Positions 2,251 through 18,274 of a DNA stretch of 26,548 nucleotides are shown here, piece after piece; the first letter of the stretch is position 1; each line of letters starts with the position of its first letter. The position numbers and the translations under genes are program-made. The notes below the pieces were generated by a model, which ran no database searches, was not told the DNA's origin, and worked only from the letters and a program-made list of their open reading frames with translations. The DNA lies in assembly GCA_009602725.1 (NCBI GenBank), contig WELB01000357.1, forward strand, positions 1 through 26,548, given 5' to 3'. This DNA is from Spirogloea muscicola. Lineage: Eukaryota; Streptophyta; Zygnematophyceae; Spirogloeales; Spirogloeaceae.

Positions 2251-3520
2251 TCCTAACCCCTAACTGTCTGTATAGGGCTTAGGGGCATCACATTCTGTAT
2301 GTGAACTGAAATTTCCCTGCCACATGAGCCCTGCAAGCGAATGACGCCTGAATTGTTCTTACCAACAACCTTGTATATAAATGGACCTGTAGAGGCATCT
2401 AGTGCATCTGGAGATTTAACTTTGAGATATACATAATCATTGACGGCAATTGTCTGATGTTTGGGTCGATAATAGCCACTGCGAATCGTAGCATACCGTT
2501 GGGTATCGCGATGTTGAGCGATACGGAGATTGTCCAAAGCAATAGGCATATGACGTTTGAATAAACGGTCCCGCTCAGTACAAACTTTGATCCACGGTTT
2601 CGGATTGTCAAGGTCAACTACTTTTGTGAGACAGCTTGAAGACTTACAGGAATTACTCTGACGTCCGTAGAGAAGGAAGTCGGGCTATAGGCCGACAAAG
2701 ATGTTTGTTTGGACATCCGGTATCCCATAGTAAGCCATGGCAGCAACTTGTTCCAGCTTTCTGTGCCGTTGCGAAGAGCATACTTGGTCAGACCGCGTTT
2801 GATAATCTGAACCATGCGTTCCGCTGAGCCATCAGCTTGGGGATGGTCTCGTGAGGTAAGTCGGTGATCAATGAAAGTTTGGTCTAACAGACATTGAAAT
2901 TCACCCTGACATTCTGAGCCCTGATCGGCGAGTACCTCAGCACAAGCGCCAAATCTAGATAATACTTGGTCCAAAAAGGCCTCAGCGACGTGTACACTAG
3001 ACTTGGTAGGAATGACGATCACCTCAACCCATTTGGTGCAGTGCTCAATCATGATTAACACGTAGGGGCTTTGTTTACTCAGACGCACGGGACCAGCCAA
3101 AACCAAAGTCCACCGATGGAATAATCCGTGAATGGGCAACGGATAAATTGGAGGTGACTTGAACGAAAGAGTCTTCGAATGCGATCACATTCCTTGCAGG
3201 TAGATAGAACATGTTTAAGCATGTTTGTGATGCCAGACCACCAGTACTTAGTGGCCAACAGACTGATAGGTGCGCTTTACTCCAATATGCCCTAAGGAGG
3301 CATGAACATCGTGCACTATTTGTGTCCGCACTGCAGGTGGTGGAACGATCTGATTGCCATATTCAATATCTGGTTTGATAAGTTGTGTATCAGTCCAGAC
3401 ATAACGACGTGCTCGGTGTTTTATGCAATCCTTCTGCATTGTCGTAGAGTCGGGAGGATATATACCAGTCTGTGAATACTGTAAGACTGGTGCATCCAAT
3501 GTAACGAAGTTACACAAGAT
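2250..3520 (-). mobile_element. Decayed Ty3/gypsy-type retroelement: integrase region of pol
   Basis: Three pieces read in order on the minus strand. The zinc-binding part (3517 to about 3170) has VHASLGHIGVKRT, then KYWWSG and C-K-E-C. The catalytic core (about 3170-2618) has ADQGSECQGEF with the second Asp and HPQADGSAERM with the Glu. A C-terminal part (2549-2253) has DYVYLKVKSPDALD and a PFIYKVVG stretch. Frame breaks separate them near 3248, near 3170 and near 2600, so this is a pseudogene. In the first catalytic motif W-x-x-D-x-x-G-P the Asp is replaced by Val (WTLVLAGP). No reverse transcriptase or RNase H is seen upstream on this strand. I could not define an LTR. Confidence 0.85.
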
Positions 3521-3821: not shown

Positions 3822-5204
3822 ATGAGGCCGGGGGCAGGGCCCCGAGAGAACCTCGATGGTTACTTAAAGAGGAGGGGCGCCCGATTGCGGTCTTTCTTCC
3901 ACCCCCAGACGCTTGTACTCAACATTCTTTACAGCTCAACGGTTGGCTTGTTTTTACCCATTGCATACGTTTGGCTCCGACTCCTTTGCTTCGCGACACC
4001 AGCGCCTCGTCCTTGGGCTTGACGATCCTCATTCTTTACAGTTCTTACGCGTGACTGCGGGCAATTATTTGAAGCAAATCCAGACCTTACTGTTGGAACG
4101 TCGTCAGCAGGTAGGCAAGGCAGATTATGACTTGAAGGATGTTTACAAACTTCTGATAAAGGAAAAAAGCTAATGACTTTACGCTCCACATTGTGGACGA
4201 GCGTTTTGCAGGCAGTGGAAGTCTTCAGGGCTCCAAACAGGCCTCCACACTTGATACGATATCAGAAGATATGGAGAGTGCTACTTTGACTTCTGATGTT
4301 CAGTATGTTGAGAGACCTTCTGGCCATCCTCGCCCAATCCAAGAGTGTCATGGAGGTGGAAGGAAAGGCCATCTTAAGGACTGCACGGCTTCGCATCAAA
4401 TTGTTGGTGCTACGTGTGGATATTGGTCAAGGTCAGGTCACATTGAATAGCAGTGCTGGCGTAAGTACCCTGAGATTATGCCTATGTCTCCGAGAAGCAA
4501 GGCAGCTGCAAGGAATGGGTTACCATTAACCAATAGACCCGCTGAGTCTCAGGATACGAAGTGACCAGATGGCTAGACAGATTGCTGAACTGACCAAACA
4601 AATTGCTGTTATTCAGAAGCAGCAAGAGTGTAAGGTAGCTCCGTCTTCATTCTTTGATGAGAACATGCAAGAGGACGAGGACTTTTGTCCCGGCAGGGAT
4701 CATCAGCACAATTTAAATGATGTGAGTGAATGTGATGCCCATTTTGCTTCTGTTGTTGCAGTGTCATCAGAGGCTAAGATTGAGCCAAGTAATCCATTGA
4801 CTTCTGTGGCTATAGTCGACAACGCCAATGGTGTTATCCAAGTGACCACAGATTCTGTTACGGCAGAGCCAACCTTGGTAGTCCTGGACACAGGTGCTCA
4901 GCCTATCCTTATAGGCCACCACTTTGCTAAGTTGCTGAGTCTTAAAAAGAAAATATTCTGCGCACCAATGAAGTCAAGACTGCAACGGGTGGCACCAACA
5001 GCATGGTTGGCATCACCAAGAAACCCCATTCTGAATAAGGAGAACCCTAGGTTGAAACCCACAGTCTCAGCTTGTTGCATCTTAAATAAAGCTGTACCTC
5101 TCGGCCTGGTATTATGCAGGGCAAGCTTGGTACATGCTTGGCAGACAGAAGTCTTGTACGAGAGAGGTTGTCTTGCCTTTACTCCATGGGAAGCAGCTTG
5201 CTAA
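3822..5204 (+). mobile_element. Decayed retroelement gag and aspartic protease region
   Basis: The plus strand carries an open stretch from 3913 to 4173 with gag-like charged helical sequence (LLLERRQQVGKADYDL). It is followed by two damaged zinc knuckles between about 4349 and 4462: in one the second Cys has become Gly, in the other it has become Trp (CGYWSRSGH) and a TAG interrupts the motif before its last Cys. Downstream, 4569-5204 encodes a coiled IAELTKQIAVIQKQQE segment and then LVVLDTGAQPILIG, the D-T-G-A active site of a retropepsin (Asp codon 4887-4889). Stops and frame changes make it non-functional. The boundaries are approximate. It may be the other half of the element on the minus strand or a separate insertion. 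Confidence 0.72.
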
Positions 5205-5850
5205 CATACCAGCATATAGTGCCATTGTCACAGGTGTTTCGCAAGCACAAGGTAAATCAAGGCAAGCTGGTACTCTAATTCCATTGACTCGAAGCACAGA
5301 GACAGGTAAATGCACAATGGATTTCTGACAAACCTCTGGTGCAGAATCATTTAGTGGTGCGACTTTGTGCGCCAATTTCTCCAGGGAATGGCTTGTTATC
5401 CACCATATCGATGGCCGATCAACTGATGAAGTCAAAGCTTGGCTCGTGTATGTTACTCCCCGTTGCTAAAGCTGCTCCGGCGCTGCCACATTGGCGACAG
5501 GCGTCCCTAATTTCATAATGCTGTCAAAGTGTTGACGCGGTGGATGCAGAGACCCAGCTCGAAAGTCTATCCCGAAGGTACGGCATCGGTCACGAGGACC
5601 AGAAGCGCTAATACATTGTCCAACACCACCACTCACATACCTACAGATGACTGGTTTTGCAGAAGTTGTCTGGGTTCATACCCAACTCCTTCTCCTATGC
5701 CAGGATTCGCAATTGGGTGGGGGGGGGGACAAATAGATTCCTCCATTCCAAGTTCTGGTAAACAAACCACGGCATCTGTTAATTCTTTTCCATTATCCAT
5801 CGCTTTCTTTTCACAAATAGTACGTTGCCAGCCACGTGGATCCTGACGTG
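5205..5850 (+). mobile_element. Possible continuation of the retroelement, with a PHD-finger-like remnant
   Basis: No continuous coding frame. At about 5610-5670 two overlapping frames together give H-C-P-T-P-P-L-T and HIPTDDWFCRSC, which resembles the C-terminal half of a PHD zinc finger broken by a frameshift. A G-rich run lies near 5720. The rest holds nothing I recognise. Confidence 0.35.
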
Positions 5851-5984
5851 TCACCTTAATTTCTTACAAATCTGCCCTACCGATATTCCCTAGCAATCGG
5901 CACTGTATGGCACGACAAGCTTTCAGAAGAGGGCGTTGGCTGTGAGAGGCCAGCCCAGAACAAAGAGTGCACAGATGTCGAAGG

Positions 5985-6215
5985 GGCAAACACGCAATCA
6001 AGTAGCTACACGACACTCAGTAAGCCCTACTAAGCAGCCGCAGGTCGGAGAAACTAGTTGCCTGGTAGCGGGTCCTCTGGCTAGGGCCAGAGGCTGCGGC
6101 ACGACCGGCACGCAGATGCAGCGCGCGAGCCATGGGCCTCTGCAGCGAGACGGACAAGCGCATGCGACACAGCTGCGCGAGCGAGCCTGCGCATGGCAAT
6201 CCAGCATGCGTAGCC
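5985..6215 (-). repeat. Copy of the dispersed short interspersed family
   Basis: On the minus strand it carries the shared core: CGCATGCGC, then CTGCAG, then a CATGGC stretch and GCTGCATCTGCG, followed by the AGCAGCCGCAG border on the plus strand at 6034-6043. It is similar to the copies at 16655, 18945 and 19636. The A-box-like segment is degenerate. Confidence 0.75.
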
Positions 6216-6458
6216 GTGGAGGCAGATTGCGTGGGGTGAGTGCGGTCGGATGAGTCGGTGGTCACCACGTCTAGGATGAGACGCGGCCCGCCAGCCAGGG
6301 GAGAGGCCAGGAGGTCGACGCGTCGGGCGTGGAGACCGTTCGCCCTCTGCTGGAGCGGCATGACAGCGGAGTTCTCGGCGGCCACCGAGAAGCGGGCCTC
6401 CACGAGAATGCCATGCATGGCATGGCGGAGGAGGTCGTGCGCCGCCGTCCGCTGATGT

Positions 6459-7164
6459 TGCCATTTGCATGAGCTTGACAGGGTCCAGCGGAGAAGTACA
6501 TGCTGGCCAGATCTCCGTGAAGCACAATCAAATCAATGAGGCTGGCAGAACGTAGGTGCTCAGGCTTTGCTCAGATGTGTTTAATGCGGATCACCCTGCT
6601 GGTGATGGCATTGTGGCGCTGGCAATGGACGTGCACGGTGCTGGACCTCCTGCAGGCGGCTTGCACGGCCGGCCATCAAGTGTTGGCAGGGACAGCAAGG
6701 TGAGCTGCCCGGCTCGAATGCCGCCGGGTCGCTTGCCCAGGTGTTCCGCATGCGGCCATCCACTCCCTTCTAATGTTCCCAGTCTCACGCAGTGCACTTG
6801 TGGGCAGGCGGCCCTTTGGCAGCTGCTTCTGCGACTCGTCGGGGTGCCTCTTTCCAGCTGCAAGTCACTCCGACTTGCCGCAGCGGACTCGGGGTCACTA
6901 TGCTCCTATTCGCCGTAGTCTACTCGACATAGTCTTTCGCATACTCTTGCGGTTTTGGCGACTCGGCCTTGGGACCTTGTTCATTCTCCCTGGGCTGGCC
7001 TTTCACAGCCTCCCCCCCCTCTGCATGTAGCATTCGGTCCATAGCAGGCAGCTTAGAGCCAAATGCGTCCTCTTTGGGGTTGAGTGCTTGGGGATTCAGG
7101 GACACCAACCCGCCACGAAGAAGCACTCCGGCACTTGGACCCTGTCAAGCTCATGCAAATGGCA
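6459..7164. repeat. 28-nt perfect inverted repeat flanking about 650 bp
   Basis: The arms at 6459-6486 and 7137-7164 are exact reverse complements over 28 nt. They start TGCCATTTGC... on the left and end ...GCAAATGGCA on the right. The flanks diverge at once. The interior has no recognisable gene, and neither a target-site duplication nor a transposase is evident. Confidence 0.8.
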
Positions 7165-8165
7165 CCATCGTGCGCCCTACCGCTACATGCCACAAACGTC
7201 TGTGATATGCTGACACAAGCAGCCACTCTACATGGCAGTGACGCCTGTCCGGACAACCTGATTGAGCAGCCACCTTCTCATGTGACTGGCCTCTCAAGCC
7301 TGCAGTAGCTGCGTGATCTCACGTTGCCCTGAAGCAGGTCACCTGCTAGCTGCTGCAAGCATTGGTGATAAGTGACAGTCTGCTCGAGTGCCACTCGACA
7401 TTATCCAGCGAGGTAGAGATCTCAGAGTGCCATTCCAATGGACCTCTGAGCAAGCGGAGCATCTCCTCGCAGAATACTTGACAACAACAGAGCTGCTGGC
7501 ATAACACCAGCAAACTCCCGGACAAGCCTCGAATTCACTGCATGTTCATGGTGTAAGTGGTGACCTCTGAGCTACTACTTTGGTGATTATTTGTATTGGT
7601 TTGCATGCACTATCTTTGGTCGCCACCTACTAGATGATGGCGGTAGGAGTCTTGTCAATACATTTATGCCTGGGATCGTGTGAGTAATGTAAGCACTTGC
7701 TCTATCAACTACTTCCCTGGAGGCATGAAATCCACTTCAGTAGCAGCTTTTCAATATCGCTCATCCCCCCACATTAGTCCAACAGCTCTCAGTATAGTCG
7801 AGTGGACTATGGCTTCACGACCGGCAGGTGGCTGCCAAATGCAGGCCACAGGAGGATGTCGACGATCGGCTGCTTCAAGGTGTTCCTGTGCCATTGCACA
7901 TTGTGGAGTTGATGCGGATGTGAGCACTGCAAGTCCGAGACCTGTTGAGTGGTCAATCCCCAGGTGGACACATATTGGTCAGCTTTGCAGATGCCATGGG
8001 GGCCTCACATTGCAGCATGACAGCTCCCTGTGAGATTGATATCGAGCACCAACGCTCATCATCGGCAAACAAGCATGAGACTTTCCTGCACCCATGGCTG
8101 CGGGAACTGCAAAGCAATCAGCGAGTGCCCTTGGCTAGCCCACGAGCTTGGTGGTGGTCCCTTAC
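7165..8165. other. Unassigned stretch downstream of the placed LRR/Cys exons
   Basis: The 3' end of the minus-strand LRR/Cys gene must lie here or beyond. Weak candidates are a short exon near 8076-8123, which would add C-R-K-V-S-C before a GTTTGC, and an acceptor near 7921 followed by N-S-T-M-C. Neither gives a full module, and I could not place a stop codon. Confidence 0.35.
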
Positions 8166-11100
8166 TCTCGGTCGCAAACGTAGGGATAGCAAGGGTCGAT
8201 GGGCGTGGGCACGATGTTATAGTCGTACTGGTCTTCAGGATAAGGGTTAAACACTTTCATCCCCGGAGGAGTGCAGAGAGTCTTGTTGTTGAAGGAGTTT
8301 GTGCAGACACCCTTCCTGCACCGACAACACAGGGTAGGACGCGCAGGTGTGGGAACCTTCCACTTGGCTAGGCTCCGGGCAGCGTGCGGGGTCAAGATGC
8401 CCAGTCATAGAAAGGGCCTGAGCTTTAGCCCCTTCCCGAGCATGACTCTCCCTACAGCTGCAGAGCACTTGCTGCTGGTGGACGTCTCCCCCCCCTGAAC
8501 TCAACACAACTGACACGTGCACAATTGAAAGCGGAAACACTTCACTGGCAGTTTGTGATTGTACACTCGGAGTCGACATTTGGCAGATAACACTGGGTTC
8601 CGTCGGTGTAATTGTTTGCACTCTTGCAATGGCCTGCCCCACTGCAGCAAAAACATGAAAAGACAGAGGAGACCAGAGCCTAGTCAAGCAAACCAGAAAG
8701 GTGCAGTCAGCTGAATTACATGCCCACTTGTGAGTCAGCTTCTAATGACATCATGATGTTGACTTTGATTTGTCGCCGACACTCGTACGCTGGTGACTCA
8801 TGGCAGTGCAGGGAAGTTGATGGCAAGTATGCCAGATGGTTGCGAGCACGATGTGTACGGGAACCACCAGTTGATCTTGCAGTAATGAGCACATTGAGAG
8901 CGGTGTGGCCCCATCAGCTAGCAGATCAGAGTGCTCCACTTACTCGCAGACCTTGTCAGAACAGGCAGCTCCGGAGGTCCTGGGGTCCTGGCAAGTCTTG
9001 CTGGAGTTGAAATACCCCGCCACCGTGCAGACTCCATGCCTTGCCCGCAGATTGGACGAGCATCGGCGAGGGGGTCAAGCACCACTGGATGCATGTTGTG
9101 GATGATGCCGCAAGGTGAATACTCACTAAATAGACTCTCAGAGCATGATGGCATGTGTGATGCTCAAGATGCATGTAGATGTTTGACGATCGTGTCCGCT
9201 TCACGAGGTTGTGCAGGGTGCCTACAACGGCTGACATTATGTAGCCAACTGAAAAGGGGCAGATGCAGTACGTCCATTCAAGCCAGGACTAGCCGACTCT
9301 GCTTGGCAAGGAGCAGCAGTCAAGGACTTCACAGGCACCGTATCAGTGGGTCTATTGCTTACTTGCAAGCCTCCGTAAAACAGTACAGGTCCTCGACCTT
9401 GTCGTTGTCAGTTGTTCCCGTTTGGCAATAAGTTCCATCCGTGGCGTTCTTCCTCAGGTTGCAGGCGCCCTTCCCACTGCCAACCACCACATAGCTTAGC
9501 AGCCGACAGAGCTGGAGTTTGCGTTCAAAGAGTTGCTTGGGGAGACGCTTACCGCAAGTGACACCCACTTCCTGGACGTGAAGCACATCAAGACTGCTGA
9601 GAGGTACTATGAGCCTGCTTCTGAGCATCCATACGTCATGTCTAATTTGGCACAGAGCATAACTAGGAGCAAAGGCTTGGCTTTGGAGATAGCACACAGA
9701 TAGCACGCTTTTGCAAGCCAATGCCAAGTGCATGTGGCAGCAGACAGACATGACGAGGCACAGGCGGGCATGAGGCCAACCAACCGTAGACTTGAACCGC
9801 GTTTGCAGTGGTCAGCAATCAGATGTCATAGGGACCGCACCACTGCCTGACTGAGTACTGTGCATTGAGAGAGGTCAAGCGCCTTACTTGCAGTAGAGGG
9901 CGGTGCAGCTGACTGTGTAGTCGATGTTGCATCTTGTAAAGTTGTTGCGGAACCCCGTCGTGATGCATGAGCCATTGCTGCCAGGCTCACATGCAGTGCC
10001 ACGCACTCTTACTCAGACTCACTGGCGCTGACAATCGCTTCCAGGTGGACGCTGTGACAGACTAACTCCGTGTGCACTGCTGGTGCTCCTACTTGCTCTG
10101 CGGTCCGACCATATGCTGGTAACGACAAAAAGCACACAAAGCACGGCATAGGCTGTCTGCGTGGAGCCTGTCTGCGGGAAGTCAGAGCTTCCAAAACTGA
10201 AACCGCTCCAGTCCCATCGAGTCATCCATGTCAAGCCGACTTCGGAGCTCGTCACATTTTCTGGATGTGGGGTTTAGGGTTGGATGACACCCTGAGCACC
10301 TATGCAGGCTGGGCACTGCACCTGGAGCAGCGGCTTTCAATGCACTCCTTGTCCCAGCTTGGGTCCGTATATAATGGGTAATAGCACAGTCGATTGATGG
10401 CCCCCTGCTGGACACTGTCGAAGGTGCAGTTGCCTGCCCTGCATTGTGCATGTGGTTGCAAGTCAGCAGCACCACTGTCTAAGCATGCACTGGCAACAAT
10501 ATCAGCTCAACTGCGACCCCCCCGCGTGCGTGTCCTTGCTGTATGTATTGGCAAACACCGCAATATCCAGTGGATGGTAGGTGATCGTTGCCCAGGATGG
10601 GGAGCAGGTGGGCTGATGTCTAAAGAGGACTTGGGTGCGGAGGACCCTAGGACCGGCGAGCTGGCGAGTTATTGCAACAGATCGGGCGAATGGTGGGAAG
10701 CCACTTGAAACTGCTCCTAGCATTCGCCCAGAGTAGCGGGAGTGTGCCTAGTCTAACAAGGTTTTGGCTACCGCCAGCATGAAACCGCAAGCGGCGCTTC
10801 AGAGACATTGCCAGCTACTTGCCTGCTGCACCGTGTGTGGTTGAGGTGCATGAGCATCCTAACACTAACCTGCAAAAGGAGAATGAGCACTCGGAGGAAT
10901 AACTGGTCCTTGGGTAGTGGCCCGAACAAATGGTGTTGTCCACGTCCATATGAAGAGAGCATCTGGGGATTGGGCCATCATAGTAGCTTCGCCAGGGAAC
11001 CACGAGGCTCAGAGTCAGTGTCGACTGTGCAGCAGTCTCCGAGAATCAGTGCAGCATTGAATCAGCTTCTGCAGGGGCGGCAGTAAGGCAGAGGCTCGCG

Positions 11101-11267
11101 AGCCAACTCATCTGCAGCGAGTGGCGAGCAGAGTCACTCTCAGATACCATGGGCTCACTTGCAAATTGATTCGGAGCACGCTGGATCGATGTCGGTGTGG
11201 TTGTAGTCCACACCAAGATAGGTCTCAATGTCACAAGGTCCAGGCAAGGCTTCCCCGTCTCTACATT
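8166..11267 (-). CDS. Eight exon-encoded four-Cys modules
   Basis: Exons 11267-11159, 10962-10870, 10438-10322, 9977-9888, 9476-9363, 9039-8944, 8641-8546 and 8315-8166 each encode one module of pattern C-x(9-13)-C-x(7-27)-C-x4-C, with the final Cys followed by a phase-2 intron (in the last exon two residues later). Spacings in order are 9/18/4, 10/12/4, 13/13/4, 11/7/4, 11/14/4, 11/8/4, 11/8/4 and 9/27/4. N-x-S/T sequons occur in seven of the eight, usually between the first two cysteines (for example NFT, NAT, NSS, NYT, NKT). The pattern suggests two disulphides per module and a secreted, glycosylated stalk or binding region. I do not recognise the module as a named domain. Other modules may lie in the unassigned intronic stretches. 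Confidence 0.82.
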
Positions 11268-14200
11268 CTGAGGAGCAAGAAGGCCACTGTTCAGATGCCA
11301 GCATGCGCCGCATGCTGCACACGCAGGGCACGTCAGAAGACGGCTTAGATCGCATGAGATGGACGACAGCAAGGAGGAGTAGACTGGCAGTGAAGGTGAC
11401 AAAGACACGGTGGCTCTACACAGCCTGCCACTCAGCGCCCCCCGGCAGCCATTGCCGATCGGGCTGAGCTCAGGGTGGGCCGCACCGCGAGCCGGGCTGC
11501 TTGCCATGGCTCACTGGCCGGTGCAGCCTCGTAATGTCGGCGACATGTGAGGAGCAGGGACCCGAGCACTCACGGGGTAGCGGCAGCCCCTTGCAGAAGG
11601 CCACCGGACGCTGCGAGACCGCCGGCGGCTTGAAGCAATTGTTGCCGGTGATCACCCTCACTCCCGGCACCGACACGTTGGGCAGCGGGCCGAGCAGGTA
11701 GTTGCCAGAAATGTCCACATACTTCAGCCCCATGCTGGCCAGCAGCGGGAGCAAGGTCCGTGGGAAGCCCCCCCCGAACTGGTTGTTGGAGATGTCGCTG
11801 CACGCGCACGCAGCATGGCCCTGGTTCGCGGTGAGATGGCCACAACAGGCAATGTGCAGCATGTGGTTGGGACTGCGGCCAGCGAGCATGACCATGGTGA
11901 GGATTGCAAGAGGAAAGGCGCGCACACGCCCCACACCGCCTGATTGGGGCTGCAGTCGGCCGCATGCATGCAAGCAGCCGCAATCATGTGAAAGCCTGCA
12001 GGCCATCAGTCATGTGGCCCAGGGCAATCAATGTGGCTCGTGATTCTGACTCACAACTTTGTCAGCTTGGATGCACCTGCCAAGTTGACCTTCACCGTCC
12101 CCCAGAATCTGTTTCCAGCCAGATTACTGCCACCAGAACAACACTGACAGTCACAACCATGCACCCCGGCTGTGCTCATGACTGCATCTACGACCTCAAC
12201 CGTATCCGGTGCAATGAGCAGCACTAGCATACACAAGCAAGGGCTGATGGTTGGTTGTAGCCCCTCCTAACCACCGACGACCTTACCTGCACCGGCTGGC
12301 TAACAAGACTGACCTGTCCTGCTCCTCCTGAATCTACCTAGTCCTGGCACTTGGGCGACAAGGCTGTGCAGGGCCCATGGCTGCACCTGTTTGCCTCAGC
12401 ATAGCTGGCAACATGGATTTGCGGGACAAGCGAGCCTATCCTGGAGGAGGGAGCCAGGCGAGGTGCAGTAAGGGCTCACATAATTTGGGACCCGGCTGCC
12501 GACGGGGGCCTGTAGAAGTCGGTGCCAAGCTTCTCAGGGAAGGGCCCCGTGAGATTGTTGTAAGAGACATCTCTGGCATGTGAGCATTGTGCATGGAAGT
12601 CAGTCCCCAATCAGGATATCATTGTCTACAAGGTCACAATGACACGCTGCACATGTCAAGAGAACTTTCTTAGCCTGTGCCACAGTGGCATCACCAGAAC
12701 AACGACACGGTGCACTCTGCTTAAAAAGCGGCAAGTGGACTAGCATGGAAGGCACATAGACAGGCAACTAAGGTAAGACTTGACAGCAAGATGGGGGGCT
12801 CTCTCAGCGGATATTTCGACCGAGTGCGCACATCACATAGAGGTCTAGCATGGATGCATAGGAATTGTCGTAGAGGAAGCTGGGCTCGCCGCTCAGCTTG
12901 TTGTGCCCCAACTGTCTGCAATGGATGTGGACTGAGCATATGAGCACGTAGGGCTGGGTTACCTACTGCATCCCAATGACTGCTAGCAATCTGGTTAGCA
13001 GCAGTGTAGAGCCCTTTGCACTTAACCATGTCACTCGAGCACCGTGCCCCGACTTGCAAATCACTGGCAGCCTCTGTCTTGTCTGATCCAGACACGGCCT
13101 CCAGCTTTTAGCTGTGAGTGTGAGTCAGACCTTACTTTGAGACCTTGCAGAAAAAAATTACCAGACATTTCTGTCATTGCTTGAAGCTCCAGATGGGGAG
13201 GATGACTCACATTTTCTGGAGCCTGGTCATTGGAGAGAGGTCCGGGATCTCGCCGGTGAAGCCGTTGTAATCAATAGTGCTGTCAATCACTCGTAACAAG
13301 TGATGAGAAGGTGGCGGTCCAAGATCAAGACTGCATGGCAGGGAGAGCTCGAGCTCCCAGTTGCAGGCATGTGGGCAAGTCGGGAAAAGAGGGGTCCATG
13401 ATCACCGACAGGATGCTCAGGTTTCTCATCATGCCGATGTTGCTGGGGATCTGCCCGGTCAGATTGTTGCAGCACAGATGCCTGCTTGTCCAGAGTACTT
13501 TTGTCAGCGTCTCCGTCACTGACTGAATGAGAGCCATCCTTGTGGTCGGTCAGACTGCATCAATGTCAGCTCACAGCAAGTGGCAGAGCGTGGAGTGGGT
13601 GGGACAACTCACAGGAGGCTCAGCTTCATCATGCTTACGAATGTGCTGGGAATAGACCCAGTCAGGAAGTTGTGGTCCAAGTTCCTGCGCGTGCAAGCCA
13701 CACATTCCACTTCCATGTGACCGACAGAGAGCGCCGAGCACGCTCGCTTGATGAGCGACCGCAAGTTTGCGACGTTCATCGACTTGGTCCACATGGTAGA
13801 CTTTGTGTCTTGTCCACTCCCTGCTGACCGCAGGCGCTCACATGCCGCCCTTATGCCGCCCCCCACCCATCCCTTCCCCGGGTACAACCACTTATCACCA
13901 GTGCTGGACTCAAGTAGAAGCAGCTCTGCTGTGAGGGGTCTTGGGTCTGGGAGCATACATCACGTCCAGCTTGCTGAGCTGAGATATGCTCGATGGTATG
14001 GATCCTGTCAGCCGGTTGTAGTTCAGGTGCCTAGTAGACAGAGCAGGCACGAAAAGAGCCATCAGGTGATGCTCGACCTTAGAGACAGTGTGCCTCGACC
14101 AAGCACGCTCTCGTTCGCAGTGAGGGACAGAGTGTGATCAGATGCAGCCAGAGAATTTGTGCAGGTATCGCGGCACAGCTCTGCCAGTTTCGGAGGGCGA

Positions 14201-14736
14201 GGATAAGGCAGCAACCGACAGGCAATTGAGAGGGGGAGCTCGCCCTACAAGACAATGAGCTGCGAAAGGCCTCCAATTGCAGTCGTGATGGTGCCATTCA
14301 GGTTGGCACCCGTCAAGATGCTGCAGAACAGTCCAGGGCACCGGATGCTAAGGCAGGTCGACGCCGCTACGCGCACCATGCAGCCAGTCGAACAGCAGGG
14401 AAGCAGGTCATTGTCACCCCCGCACTAGGCACATGCATTCGGCCAGTCTGCCGAGCCTGGCCTCCTCAGTCTCGGGAGCGGCTGGAGAGTCTGTACACGT
14501 CGGATTGCGGTCAGAGGAGGTCGTCAGCGTGCAATGTTGCCGCCGCCGATGGAGGGTGGCCGTGCCAGGGGCTACTCACAGGGAGTTGACGCGGGTGCTG
14601 GTGCTGTCGCAGCCGATGCCGTACCAGGGGCAGTTGCCGCCTGTGGCGTTACAGCCCGCGCAGGGGTTGGCGCCCGCCCAGCTCGACAGGACCGCGGGGT
14701 TGAGCACCGCCGCCTTGAAGGCTTGCAGCGGTGGCA
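8166..14736 (-). CDS. Multi-exon LRR protein with C-terminal tandem four-Cys modules (partial model)
   Basis: Eighteen exons were placed by hand on the minus strand, 5' to 3': 14736-14580, 14320-14249, 14030-13959, 13684-13613, 13481-13410, 13279-13211, 12915-12832, 12572-12480, 12126-12055, 11797-11574, 11267-11159, 10962-10870, 10438-10322, 9977-9888, 9476-9363, 9039-8944, 8641-8546, 8315-8166. All introns are GT-AG, and the frame stays open for about 617 codons. Order: plant-type LRR N-cap, about nine LRRs, a Cys-containing C-cap, then eight Cys-rich modules. Known of the family: such LRRs usually form extracellular recognition or adhesion surfaces. No signal peptide, membrane segment or kinase was found in the part seen, so location is inferred only. 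The start codon is not found; the first placed exon begins at an acceptor or may be read through from upstream, and the N gap lies nearby. The last placed exon ends at a donor (GTAAGG), so more exons follow downstream. Confidence 0.85.
11574..11797 (-). CDS. Exon: last two LRRs and C-terminal cap
   Basis: This 224-nt exon holds two further repeats (SNNQFGGGFPRTL and SGNYLLGPLP) and then a stretch with two cysteines (NNCFKPP ... AFC), which looks like the cap closing an LRR solenoid. It enters in phase 2 after a GTGCAG acceptor and leaves in phase 1 before GTGAGTGC. It is the only phase-1 junction in the placed model. It therefore marks the border between the LRR part and the Cys-module part. 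Confidence 0.82.
12055..14320 (-). CDS. Eight LRR exons, mostly exactly 72 nt, all phase 2-2
   Basis: Exon lengths in order are 72, 72, 72, 72, 69, 84, 93 and 72 nt. Each encodes one leucine-rich repeat of the plant form N-x-L-T-G-x-I-P-x-x-I-x-x-L-x-x-L; examples are NRLTGSIPSSISQLSKL and NNLTGQIPSNIGMMRNL. Each starts one nucleotide into a codon and ends two nucleotides into one, so every junction codon joins to a hydrophobic residue (L, M, I or F). This fits the known LRR gene pattern in plants, where exons match repeats. The 84- and 93-nt exons carry longer, less regular repeats. Acceptors are mostly CAG; donors include GTGAGT, GTATGC, GTCGGT and GTAGGG. Confidence 0.85.
14580..14736 (-). 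CDS. Exon: LRR N-terminal cap (LRRNT_2-like)
   Basis: Part of the LRR/Cys-module gene. The peptide contains LQAFKAAVLNP, then SSW, two C-x2-C-like cysteines, and W-Y-G-I-G-C-D, which is the usual plant LRR N-cap layout (an amphipathic helix followed by a W-x-G-x-x-C motif). The exon ends in CT before a GTGAGT donor, phase 2. The proposed acceptor is CTGCTGCAG just upstream of 14736. The frame is also open further 5' through a start-like ATG, so the true exon start is uncertain. A signal peptide would be expected 5' of this exon, but I could not recognise one between here and the assembly gap. Confidence 0.8.
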
Positions 14737-15183
14737 CTGCAGCAGGTGAGGAGATGGGGATAAGAGTGACCATCAACCTGGGCAATGCACGCAGTCCACA
14801 GCCCAGGCTGCCCGGGCACACGATGGCGGTGCACAGCTGGGCGGGCCGCAATGGCAGGCCTCAGCGCAAGGTGGCGGCGGGGCAGGCGCGGCGCTCACGG
14901 TCGGGGTGGACGGCGAGCAGTCGGCGGCCGCCCGCCGAGGCGTGTGCGGCTTCGGGCAGGTGCAGGCCCTGTAGCAGCGGGGCCGCTGCGGCACGGGTCA
15001 GGCCCAGGCAGGGTGCTGTCGGAGGCGCGCCACAGCCGTCAAAGTGGCGGCGCTGCGGAGCAGGGCAGCGCTGGGCGGCGGCCGGGGCCCCTGGCGGCGC
15101 AGCTGCCGGGGAGGGCGGGGGCGGAGCTCGCGGGGCGGAGGCGTACTGGGTCGGCAGGGGCCCCCGAGGAGGTGCCGGCGGCG

Positions 15184-15500
15184 NNNNNNNNNNNNNNNNN
15201 NNNNNNNNNNNNNNNNNNNNNNNNNNNNNNNNNNNNNNNNNNNNNNNNNNNNNNNNNNNNNNNNNNNNNNNNNNNNNNNNNNNNNNNNNNNNNNNNNNNN
15301 NNNNNNNNNNNNNNNNNNNNNNNNNNNNNNNNNNNNNNNNNNNNNNNNNNNNNNNNNNNNNNNNNNNNNNNNNNNNNNNNNNNNNNNNNNNNNNNNNNNN
15401 NNNNNNNNNNNNNNNNNNNNNNNNNNNNNNNNNNNNNNNNNNNNNNNNNNNNNNNNNNNNNNNNNNNNNNNNNNNNNNNNNNNNNNNNNNNNNNNNNNNN
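15184..15500. other. Assembly gap
   Basis: 317 consecutive N, bordered on both sides by very GC-rich DNA. It sits upstream of the first placed exon of the LRR/Cys gene and may hide its start. Confidence 0.99.
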
Positions 15501-17792: not shown

Positions 17793-17916
17793 CGCGCCGG
17801 CGCGCCCACCGCAGCAGTGTCACGAATGTTGCCGTCACGTTACATACCCACTACGGTGCTCTCATCCACAGCTCTCAATCTGGTGGCCTATTCCCTGTGT
17901 ACTTCAGCCGTGTCTC

Positions 17917-18261
<345 letters not shown>

Positions 18262-18274
18262 CTCTCTCGCCCAT

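Follow-up and report, generated by a model that had tools for sequence, protein, structure and literature searches.

Gene structure at the locus

The window, by which we mean the whole 26,548-nucleotide stretch of Spirogloea muscicola contig WELB01000357.1, contains on its minus strand a gene in which plant-type LRRs are followed by a row of small four-Cys modules. Eighteen exons, each with an AG acceptor and a GT donor and with compatible phases throughout, splice from 14736 to 8166 into a stop-free frame of 626 codons, in the order LRRNT, nine LRR exons, of which the ninth closes with an LRRCT-like end, and then eight modules. Among these exons, LRRNT and M1 are entered in phase 1 and all others in phase 2. 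The earlier note had proposed a single frame over 18 exons and, within one gene, about ten LRRs followed by four-Cys modules; both proposals hold, with sites and phases intact and the same exons in the same order in two paralogs, C107 and C92.

The LRR part opens with a plant-type N-terminal cap, the LRRNT exon (14580..14736), which is conserved in C92 and C107. In Pfam searches the window protein satisfied the test for plant-type LRRs, with matches to LRRNT_2 (22.2 bits; cut-off 20.7), LRR_1 (66.3; 20.6) and LRR_8 (52.6; 27), and C107 matches the same LRR families. The next exons, supported by splicing and by the paralogs, are L1 (14249..14320; 72 bases, phase 2-2), L2 (13959..14030), L3 (13613..13684), L5 (13211..13279; 69 bases), L7 (12480..12572; 93 bases) and L8 (12055..12126). 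Two further LRR exons are marked by their donors: L4 (13410..13481) has GTCGGT where C107 and C92 have GTCAGT, and L6 (12832..12915; 84 bases) has a GTGCGC donor common to the window, C107 and C92. Exon L9 (11574..11797), whose counterparts in C92 and C107 are 78% identical to it, is entered in phase 2, left in phase 1 and encodes the final two LRRs and an LRRCT-like end (NNCFKPP...QR..AFC).

The module exons begin with M1 (11159..11267; phase 1 in, 2 out) and continue, again by splicing and paralogs, through M2 (10870..10962), M3 (10322..10438; donor weak), M5 (9363..9476), M6 (8944..9039) and M7 (8546..8641) to M8 (8166..8315), which ends with GA before the phase-2 donor GTAAGG. M4 (9888..9977) has an alternative acceptor at 10007; since the acceptor at 9977 is common to both paralogs, the exon probably starts there and not at 10007.

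The ends of the gene and secretion

Upstream of 14736 lies a further minus-strand exon, E0 (14899..14968; GLHLPEAAHASAGGRRLLAVHPD), with phase 0 in, phase 1 out and a conserved GRRLLAxHPD end. Its counterparts in C107 and C92 are 70-base exons with an identical donor, and on the evidence of this conservation the gene begins upstream of 14736. A first, signal-peptide exon would, by distance, fall in the assembly gap at 15184..15500. Signal-peptide-like ORFs occur upstream in three of the five paralogs scanned (C107, C92 and C244), with no strong donor found; the other two (C16 and C453) gave no convincing ORF of this kind. At the opposite end, all ten last exons read reach a stop at most seven residues after the last Cys, the C107 and C92 tails ending CLPFSG-stop and the others being likewise short. 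Read by eye, the paralog tails contain no transmembrane segment; Pfam gave no kinase match for the complete C107 protein, and the paralogs' last exons have none. The secreted protein envisaged earlier is thus supported by the paralogs but not proven.

C107 and C92 read through 23 exons, from E0 to the last exon, to a stop, encoding proteins of 831 and 827 residues, each of which has 66 Cys. Their arrays comprise 11 modules followed by a Cys-rich last exon, and the suggestion that the array ends at module 8 was therefore not borne out: the paralogs go on for three more modules and the last exon. A TAA at 8164-8162 is, in our model, intronic, lying within a conserved splice donor (GTAAGG in the window and C107, GTGAGG in C92), and conservation of this donor led us to reject a gene end at the stop just beyond 8166. 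Beyond it we found the minus-strand remnant of M9 (7875..7941), likely a shortened ninth module exon, which has two of the four Cys and runs into an in-frame TGA (7877-7875). Near 7914, inside M9, the homology to both paralogs breaks off, and none of the remainder of M9, M9b, M10 or the last exon was found in the window. By this comparison the window copy belongs to the family but is shortened at its 3' end, having eight complete modules and an interrupted ninth.

The cysteine module

The module was originally described as C-x(9-13)-C-x(7-27)-C-x4-C with an invariant C-x4-C end. M1-M8 agree with this, having first gaps of 9-13, second gaps of 7-27 and a last gap of 4 in 8/8 modules. A strict phase-2-to-2 scan found six module exons on the array strand between 8100 and 11300, none on the other strand and none on either strand in the remainder of the window; six pass and not eight because M1 enters in phase 1 and the M3 donor is weak. 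Dinucleotide shuffles (n=300) under the same scan yielded no module exon in 297 cases and one in 3, ruling out chance Cys exons. The module consensus is xGxC-x8-GTxC-x10-C-x4-C. The window protein has 16 N-x-S/T sites, 10 of them in the module part.

Searches of Pfam and NCBIfam left whole module rows without a match and placed no module above a curated cut-off. A module profile found nothing among PDB sequences up to E 10, and the C92 module row met unrelated chains only (E 0.48-1.3). The earlier impression of an unfamiliar module is supported as far as Pfam, NCBIfam and PDB sequences go: none gave a convincing match, and a single module of 53 came near a known family (see below).

Conservation and the family across the genome

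All module Cys of the window copy are conserved in both paralogs (32/32 in C107, 32/32 in C92), compared with 106/242 and 107/233 (44-46%) of the other module residues. Identity between the window and the paralogs is 0.74 in exons and 0.58-0.59 in introns, and dN/dS is ~0.45 overall, 0.30-0.33 in the LRR part and 0.54-0.59 in the modules; these values indicate that purifying selection acts on the gene. Strand-exposed LRR residues were identical at 23/30 positions versus 84/107 others in C107, and at 22/30 versus 81/107 in C92. In this three-way comparison the LRR face shows no excess variation over the remainder of the LRR, and so lends no support to rapidly changing recognition.

Across the genome we counted 18 last-exon loci and 49 matches to the LRRCT exon with E no higher than 0.001, figures that represent matches and not genes, since contigs may carry alleles of one locus (as paired near-identical matches suggest). 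Module rows were collinear in 9/10 gene pairs in a label-free test, the exception being the window versus C20a; a position-label test gave 43/44, with labels partly set by resemblance, and the label-free test is more trustworthy. Three more distant rows have no partner for M4 and M5. One LRRCT relative (C357:52800-57800) has no modules in the following 5 kb. An apparent giant fusion on C193, a 3,084-residue open frame, was discarded as mostly N, and an LRR-free class comprising C357b and C289 was likewise rejected, the DNA upstream of both being N. No relatives turned up in the bacterial, archaeal and viral contigs searched. The genome also encodes chlorophyll a/b-binding proteins; among single-domain PDB chains, one of these scores highest with the moss chains 7xqp (340.6 bits) and 8htu (339.7 bits), ahead of 6kac_Y from Chlamydomonas (318.0 bits), a weak pointer to the lineage.

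Comparison with known LRR proteins

Against PDB sequences, the LRR part matches MIK2, FLS2, PEPR1, ERL and others, along with the polygalacturonase inhibitor 1ogq. It resembles receptor-kinase and receptor-like-protein ectodomains in its LRRNT_2 cap, its LxxLxxLxLxxNxLtGxIP repeats and its LRRCT-like Cys pair, and shares with plant receptor ectodomains the encoding of one LRR per 72-base phase-2 exon. Unlike those receptors, the paralogs end without a transmembrane segment or kinase and have a module row instead. Polygalacturonase-inhibiting proteins, which end at the LRR cap, are secreted, kinase-less proteins with about ten plant-type LRRs, a description that the present, putatively secreted proteins would share; here, by contrast, the frame passes the LRRCT cap into M1 (in the window, C107 and C92) and goes on through 8 to 11 Cys modules. 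LRR-extensins (PDB 6qwn, 6qxp) combine a secreted LRR head with a long wall-type tail, and the present proteins share the head-and-tail plan but differ in having a tail of disulphide modules, with no Ser-Pro-rich extensin repeats seen by eye in the spliced proteins of the window, C107 or C92. Among the open-access papers listed by our searches, no title or abstract start describes an LRR protein with such modules. LRR proteins reported from the Trebouxia secretome are not described with this build (PMC12712428).

Alternative readings

Lacking its last exons, the window copy may be non-functional, and it is possible, though we lean against it, that it is a dying pseudogene whose 3' end has been lost and whose remainder has no useful expression. 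The break inside M9, the missing later exons and the run of M9 into TGA all fit such decay. Against it, all 18 exons are open with intact splice sites and every module Cys has been kept, while simulated neutral change at 0.1, 0.2 and 0.29 substitutions per site introduced a mean of 5.0, 9.0 and 12.0 stops and left only 1, 0 and 1 of 500 runs stop-free, though a loss of recent date would be compatible with this. That the LRR and module exons belong to two adjoining genes is highly improbable. The phase shift from 2 to 1 at the LRRCT-M1 junction might hint at a boundary, but C107 and C92 share this junction, left and entered in phase 1, the first module likewise has a phase-1 entry at nine further loci (C20b, C20a, C16, C244, C453, C289, C357b, C153 and C242), no start or stop lies between the two parts, and LRR and modules occur together at 11/15 loci read.

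The modules themselves could have diverged from a known Cys-rich class, such as ADAMTS/disintegrin cysteine-rich or EGF-like domains, which we consider unlikely. Their GTxC...C...C..GxC look, evident in the consensus and similar in the last exon, recalls ADAMTS cysteine-rich domain 2 (PF17771), and one module in 53 gives a marginal match to ADAMTS_CR_2 (E 0.016). The other 52 have no such match, the rows were unmatched and the PDB profile search was empty as described above, and the spliced proteins include no protease or other ADAMTS part. EGF-like domains have six Cys with C-x-C; M1-M8 have four without C-x-C, and Pfam EGF was unmatched. A more substantial competitor, though still the lesser prospect, is a structural wall or matrix protein, in which LRR and module row would assemble with wall proteins or polymers, in a manner like that proposed for LRR-extensins in plant walls, and nothing foreign would be recognised. 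The absence of a kinase or membrane anchor in the paralogs, the position-conserved module rows, the stronger constraint on the LRR than on the modules and the lack of excess change at exposed strand positions are consistent with such a role; the many copies (again counted as matches) exceed a simple scaffold's need, and extensin repeats are missing from the spliced proteins.

A putative family of secreted LRR-module proteins

Exon order, phases, Cys invariance and paralogs of the same build establish the architecture at the level of sequence. We favour, with some reserve, the reading that the locus belongs to a multigene family whose secreted products join plant-type LRRs to a collinear four-Cys module row, without kinase or anchor. 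Disulphides would lock each module into a small unit, and the modules in a row may form a stiff, N-glycosylated rod that keeps the LRR head within wall or matrix, the wall being the probable location. Ligands of the head might be wall polymers, peptides or foreign proteins, and with no kinase the protein would act by binding, as an inhibitor, scaffold or co-receptor; recognition is what we infer from this build. A bolder proposal, to which we give little weight, is that the modules define a new extracellular domain and that the expanded, partly chromosome-end family represents algal secreted, kinase-less recognition proteins with the row as a conserved multivalent rod.

LRR perception in plants is known chiefly through receptor kinases and receptor-like proteins of the membrane. 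In a photosynthetic green-lineage genome, a large secreted LRR family whose tail of disulphide modules is conserved would offer a protein set for studying wall, partner and microbe sensing in simple or single-celled greens, and the module, as a candidate new domain, is open to expression and structure solution. With its modules encoded as symmetric phase-2 exons, and with M4 and M5 unpartnered in the distant rows, the window copy also illustrates how module number changes within such a family.

Gene structure and the ends of the window copy

An earlier note had described an LRR ectodomain followed by eight one-exon four-Cys modules, joined in one open frame, and the exon model bears this out. 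Eighteen exons run on the minus strand from 14736 to 8166 with AG/GT at all edges, phases that fit throughout and 626 codons free of stops; the same exons recur in the same order and phases in two paralogs, C107 and C92, and the noted Cys spacings (9–13, 7–27 and 4) were found in all eight modules (M1–M8). Under a strict phase-2-to-2 rule, six module exons were recognised in the array region; its opposite strand and the remainder of the window had none, while dinucleotide shuffles of the array region (n = 300) gave no module exon in 297 cases and one in three. The modelled window protein contains 42 Cys and 16 N-x-S/T sites.

A conserved 70-base exon, E0 (14968–14899, minus strand; ending GRRLLAxHPD), precedes the N-terminal LRR cap exon and is also present in C107 and C92. 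Among five paralogs scanned, C107, C92 and C244 have signal-peptide-like ORFs upstream and C16 and C453 have no convincing one; the upstream scan found no strong splice donor for these ORFs, and an N gap occupies the place in the window where such an ORF would fall. Positions 17913–18268 are taken up by a long array of the dinucleotide TC, with 178 copies and 98% matches.

At the 3' end, the TAA after M8 is rejected as the gene end: it lies inside a splice donor (GA|GTAAGG), with GTAAGG at the same place in C107 and GTGAGG in C92. Beyond M8, the C107 and C92 frames continue through a ninth module (M9), two later modules (M9b and M10) and a Cys-rich last exon to a stop; from E0, these models have 23 exons each (831 and 827 residues), with 66 Cys each and 23 and 20 N-x-S/T sites. 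Window homology to both stops at ~7914, inside M9, whose exon runs into TGA at 7877–7875, and the later modules and last exon used as query gave at most weak matches in the window, to its own modules. Zero stops in the 18 exons would be unlikely under long neutral decay of the window copy, but its function may have been lost recently. Just past the lost 3' end is a repeat (6601–7028) with dozens of similar genome copies (at least 50 among 1,401 first-look candidates). An ORF with an integrase core domain (2618–3139, minus strand; Pfam rve, E 3.3e-9), also downstream, is part of a retroelement.

The module and its conservation

With M1 manually shortened to remove its additional N-terminal Cys stretch, 53 aligned modules gave the consensus xGxC-x8-GTxC-x10-C-x4-C, with three Cys invariant and the fourth at 90% or more. 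The earlier note did not know the module as a described domain, and Pfam, NCBIfam and PDB sequences gave no convincing match to it. Pfam matched nothing in whole module rows or last exons, and single modules yielded only ADAMTS_CR_2 (1/53, E 0.016) and DUF6204 (1/53, E 0.13). NCBIfam had no match; the module profile matched no PDB sequence, and the C92 module row retrieved five unrelated chains (E 0.48–1.3). Searches of bacterial, archaeal and viral contigs returned no relative.

The window gene is more similar to its paralogs in exons (identity 0.743 to C107, 0.740 to C92) than in introns (0.588 and 0.582), with dN/dS of 0.45 against each (dS ~0.57–0.58). By part, dN/dS against C107 and C92 was 0.30 and 0.33 for LRR exons versus 0.59 and 0.54 for module exons. 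Both paralogs retain every one of the 32 Cys in the window's modules, and other module residues much less often (106/242 in C107, 107/233 in C92), so the modules change fast except at cysteines, as disulphide-locked units would.

Distribution in the genome

Paralogs were sought in the 153-Mb genome (471 contigs, the window being the start of C357), and a search with the last modules found further loci. Chlorophyll a/b-binding proteins encoded in this genome mark its lineage as photosynthetic. LRR sequence and modules occur together in 11 of the 15 loci read (the window, C107, C92, C20a, C20b, C16, C244, C453, C153, C242 and a diverged one at C20:1033600–1039500). Among the rest, C357b and C289 have N upstream of the modules and C193 has N after the C-terminal LRR cap (LRRCT) exon; at C357:52800–57800, no modules were seen in the 5 kb after that exon. 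Module rows were collinear in nine of ten gene pairs, the exception being the window versus C20a. In C244, C20a and C357b, no module pairs reciprocally with M4 or M5 of the window clade.

Of 24 rows given by a last-exon probe, 18 are distinct places (E ≤ 4.3e-10), none of them in the window; of 56 rows given by an LRRCT-exon probe, 49 have E ≤ 0.001, including the window. These are matches rather than gene counts, because contigs may include alleles. The 123 genome-wide LRRNT_2 matches, many clustered (C2, C16, C20, C33, C223, C330), point to an abundance of LRR genes, though near-identical matches on several pairs of contigs may represent alleles. Contig C107 ends in TTTAGGG telomere repeats (C107:474720) within 0.6 kb of the gene's stop, placing at least one family copy at a chromosome end. 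Contig C357 bears a second module row and last exon on the opposite strand (C357:30500–38500, 4867–8001 therein), its upstream part falling in an N gap. On C20, the 3' end of the gene (M10 and last exon) is present again as a partial second copy, a few kb beyond the first (8911–9956 of the C20 stretch read), a tandem duplication.

Relation to known LRR proteins

The gene models show a plant-type LRR domain joined in phase to a conserved row of Cys modules, and the predicted proteins of complete relatives have neither membrane anchor nor kinase. The PDB sequences most like the LRR part are ectodomains of plant receptors, with PGIP and LRR-extensin entries as its counterparts among secreted proteins. 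Tests of membership placed the protein outside receptor kinases, membrane receptor-like proteins, PGIPs and LRR-extensins; on our reading it would nonetheless work like the secreted LRR proteins (PGIP, LRR-extensin).

Six LRR exons count against recognition by a fast-changing LRR face: of their strand-exposed residues, 23/30 are identical in C107 (84/107 for the rest) and 22/30 in C92 (81/107). Since these residues are as conserved as the rest, recognition and scaffold readings are kept side by side. The protein would be secreted, with a binding head borne on a rod, and rod and head may be placed in the wall or matrix.
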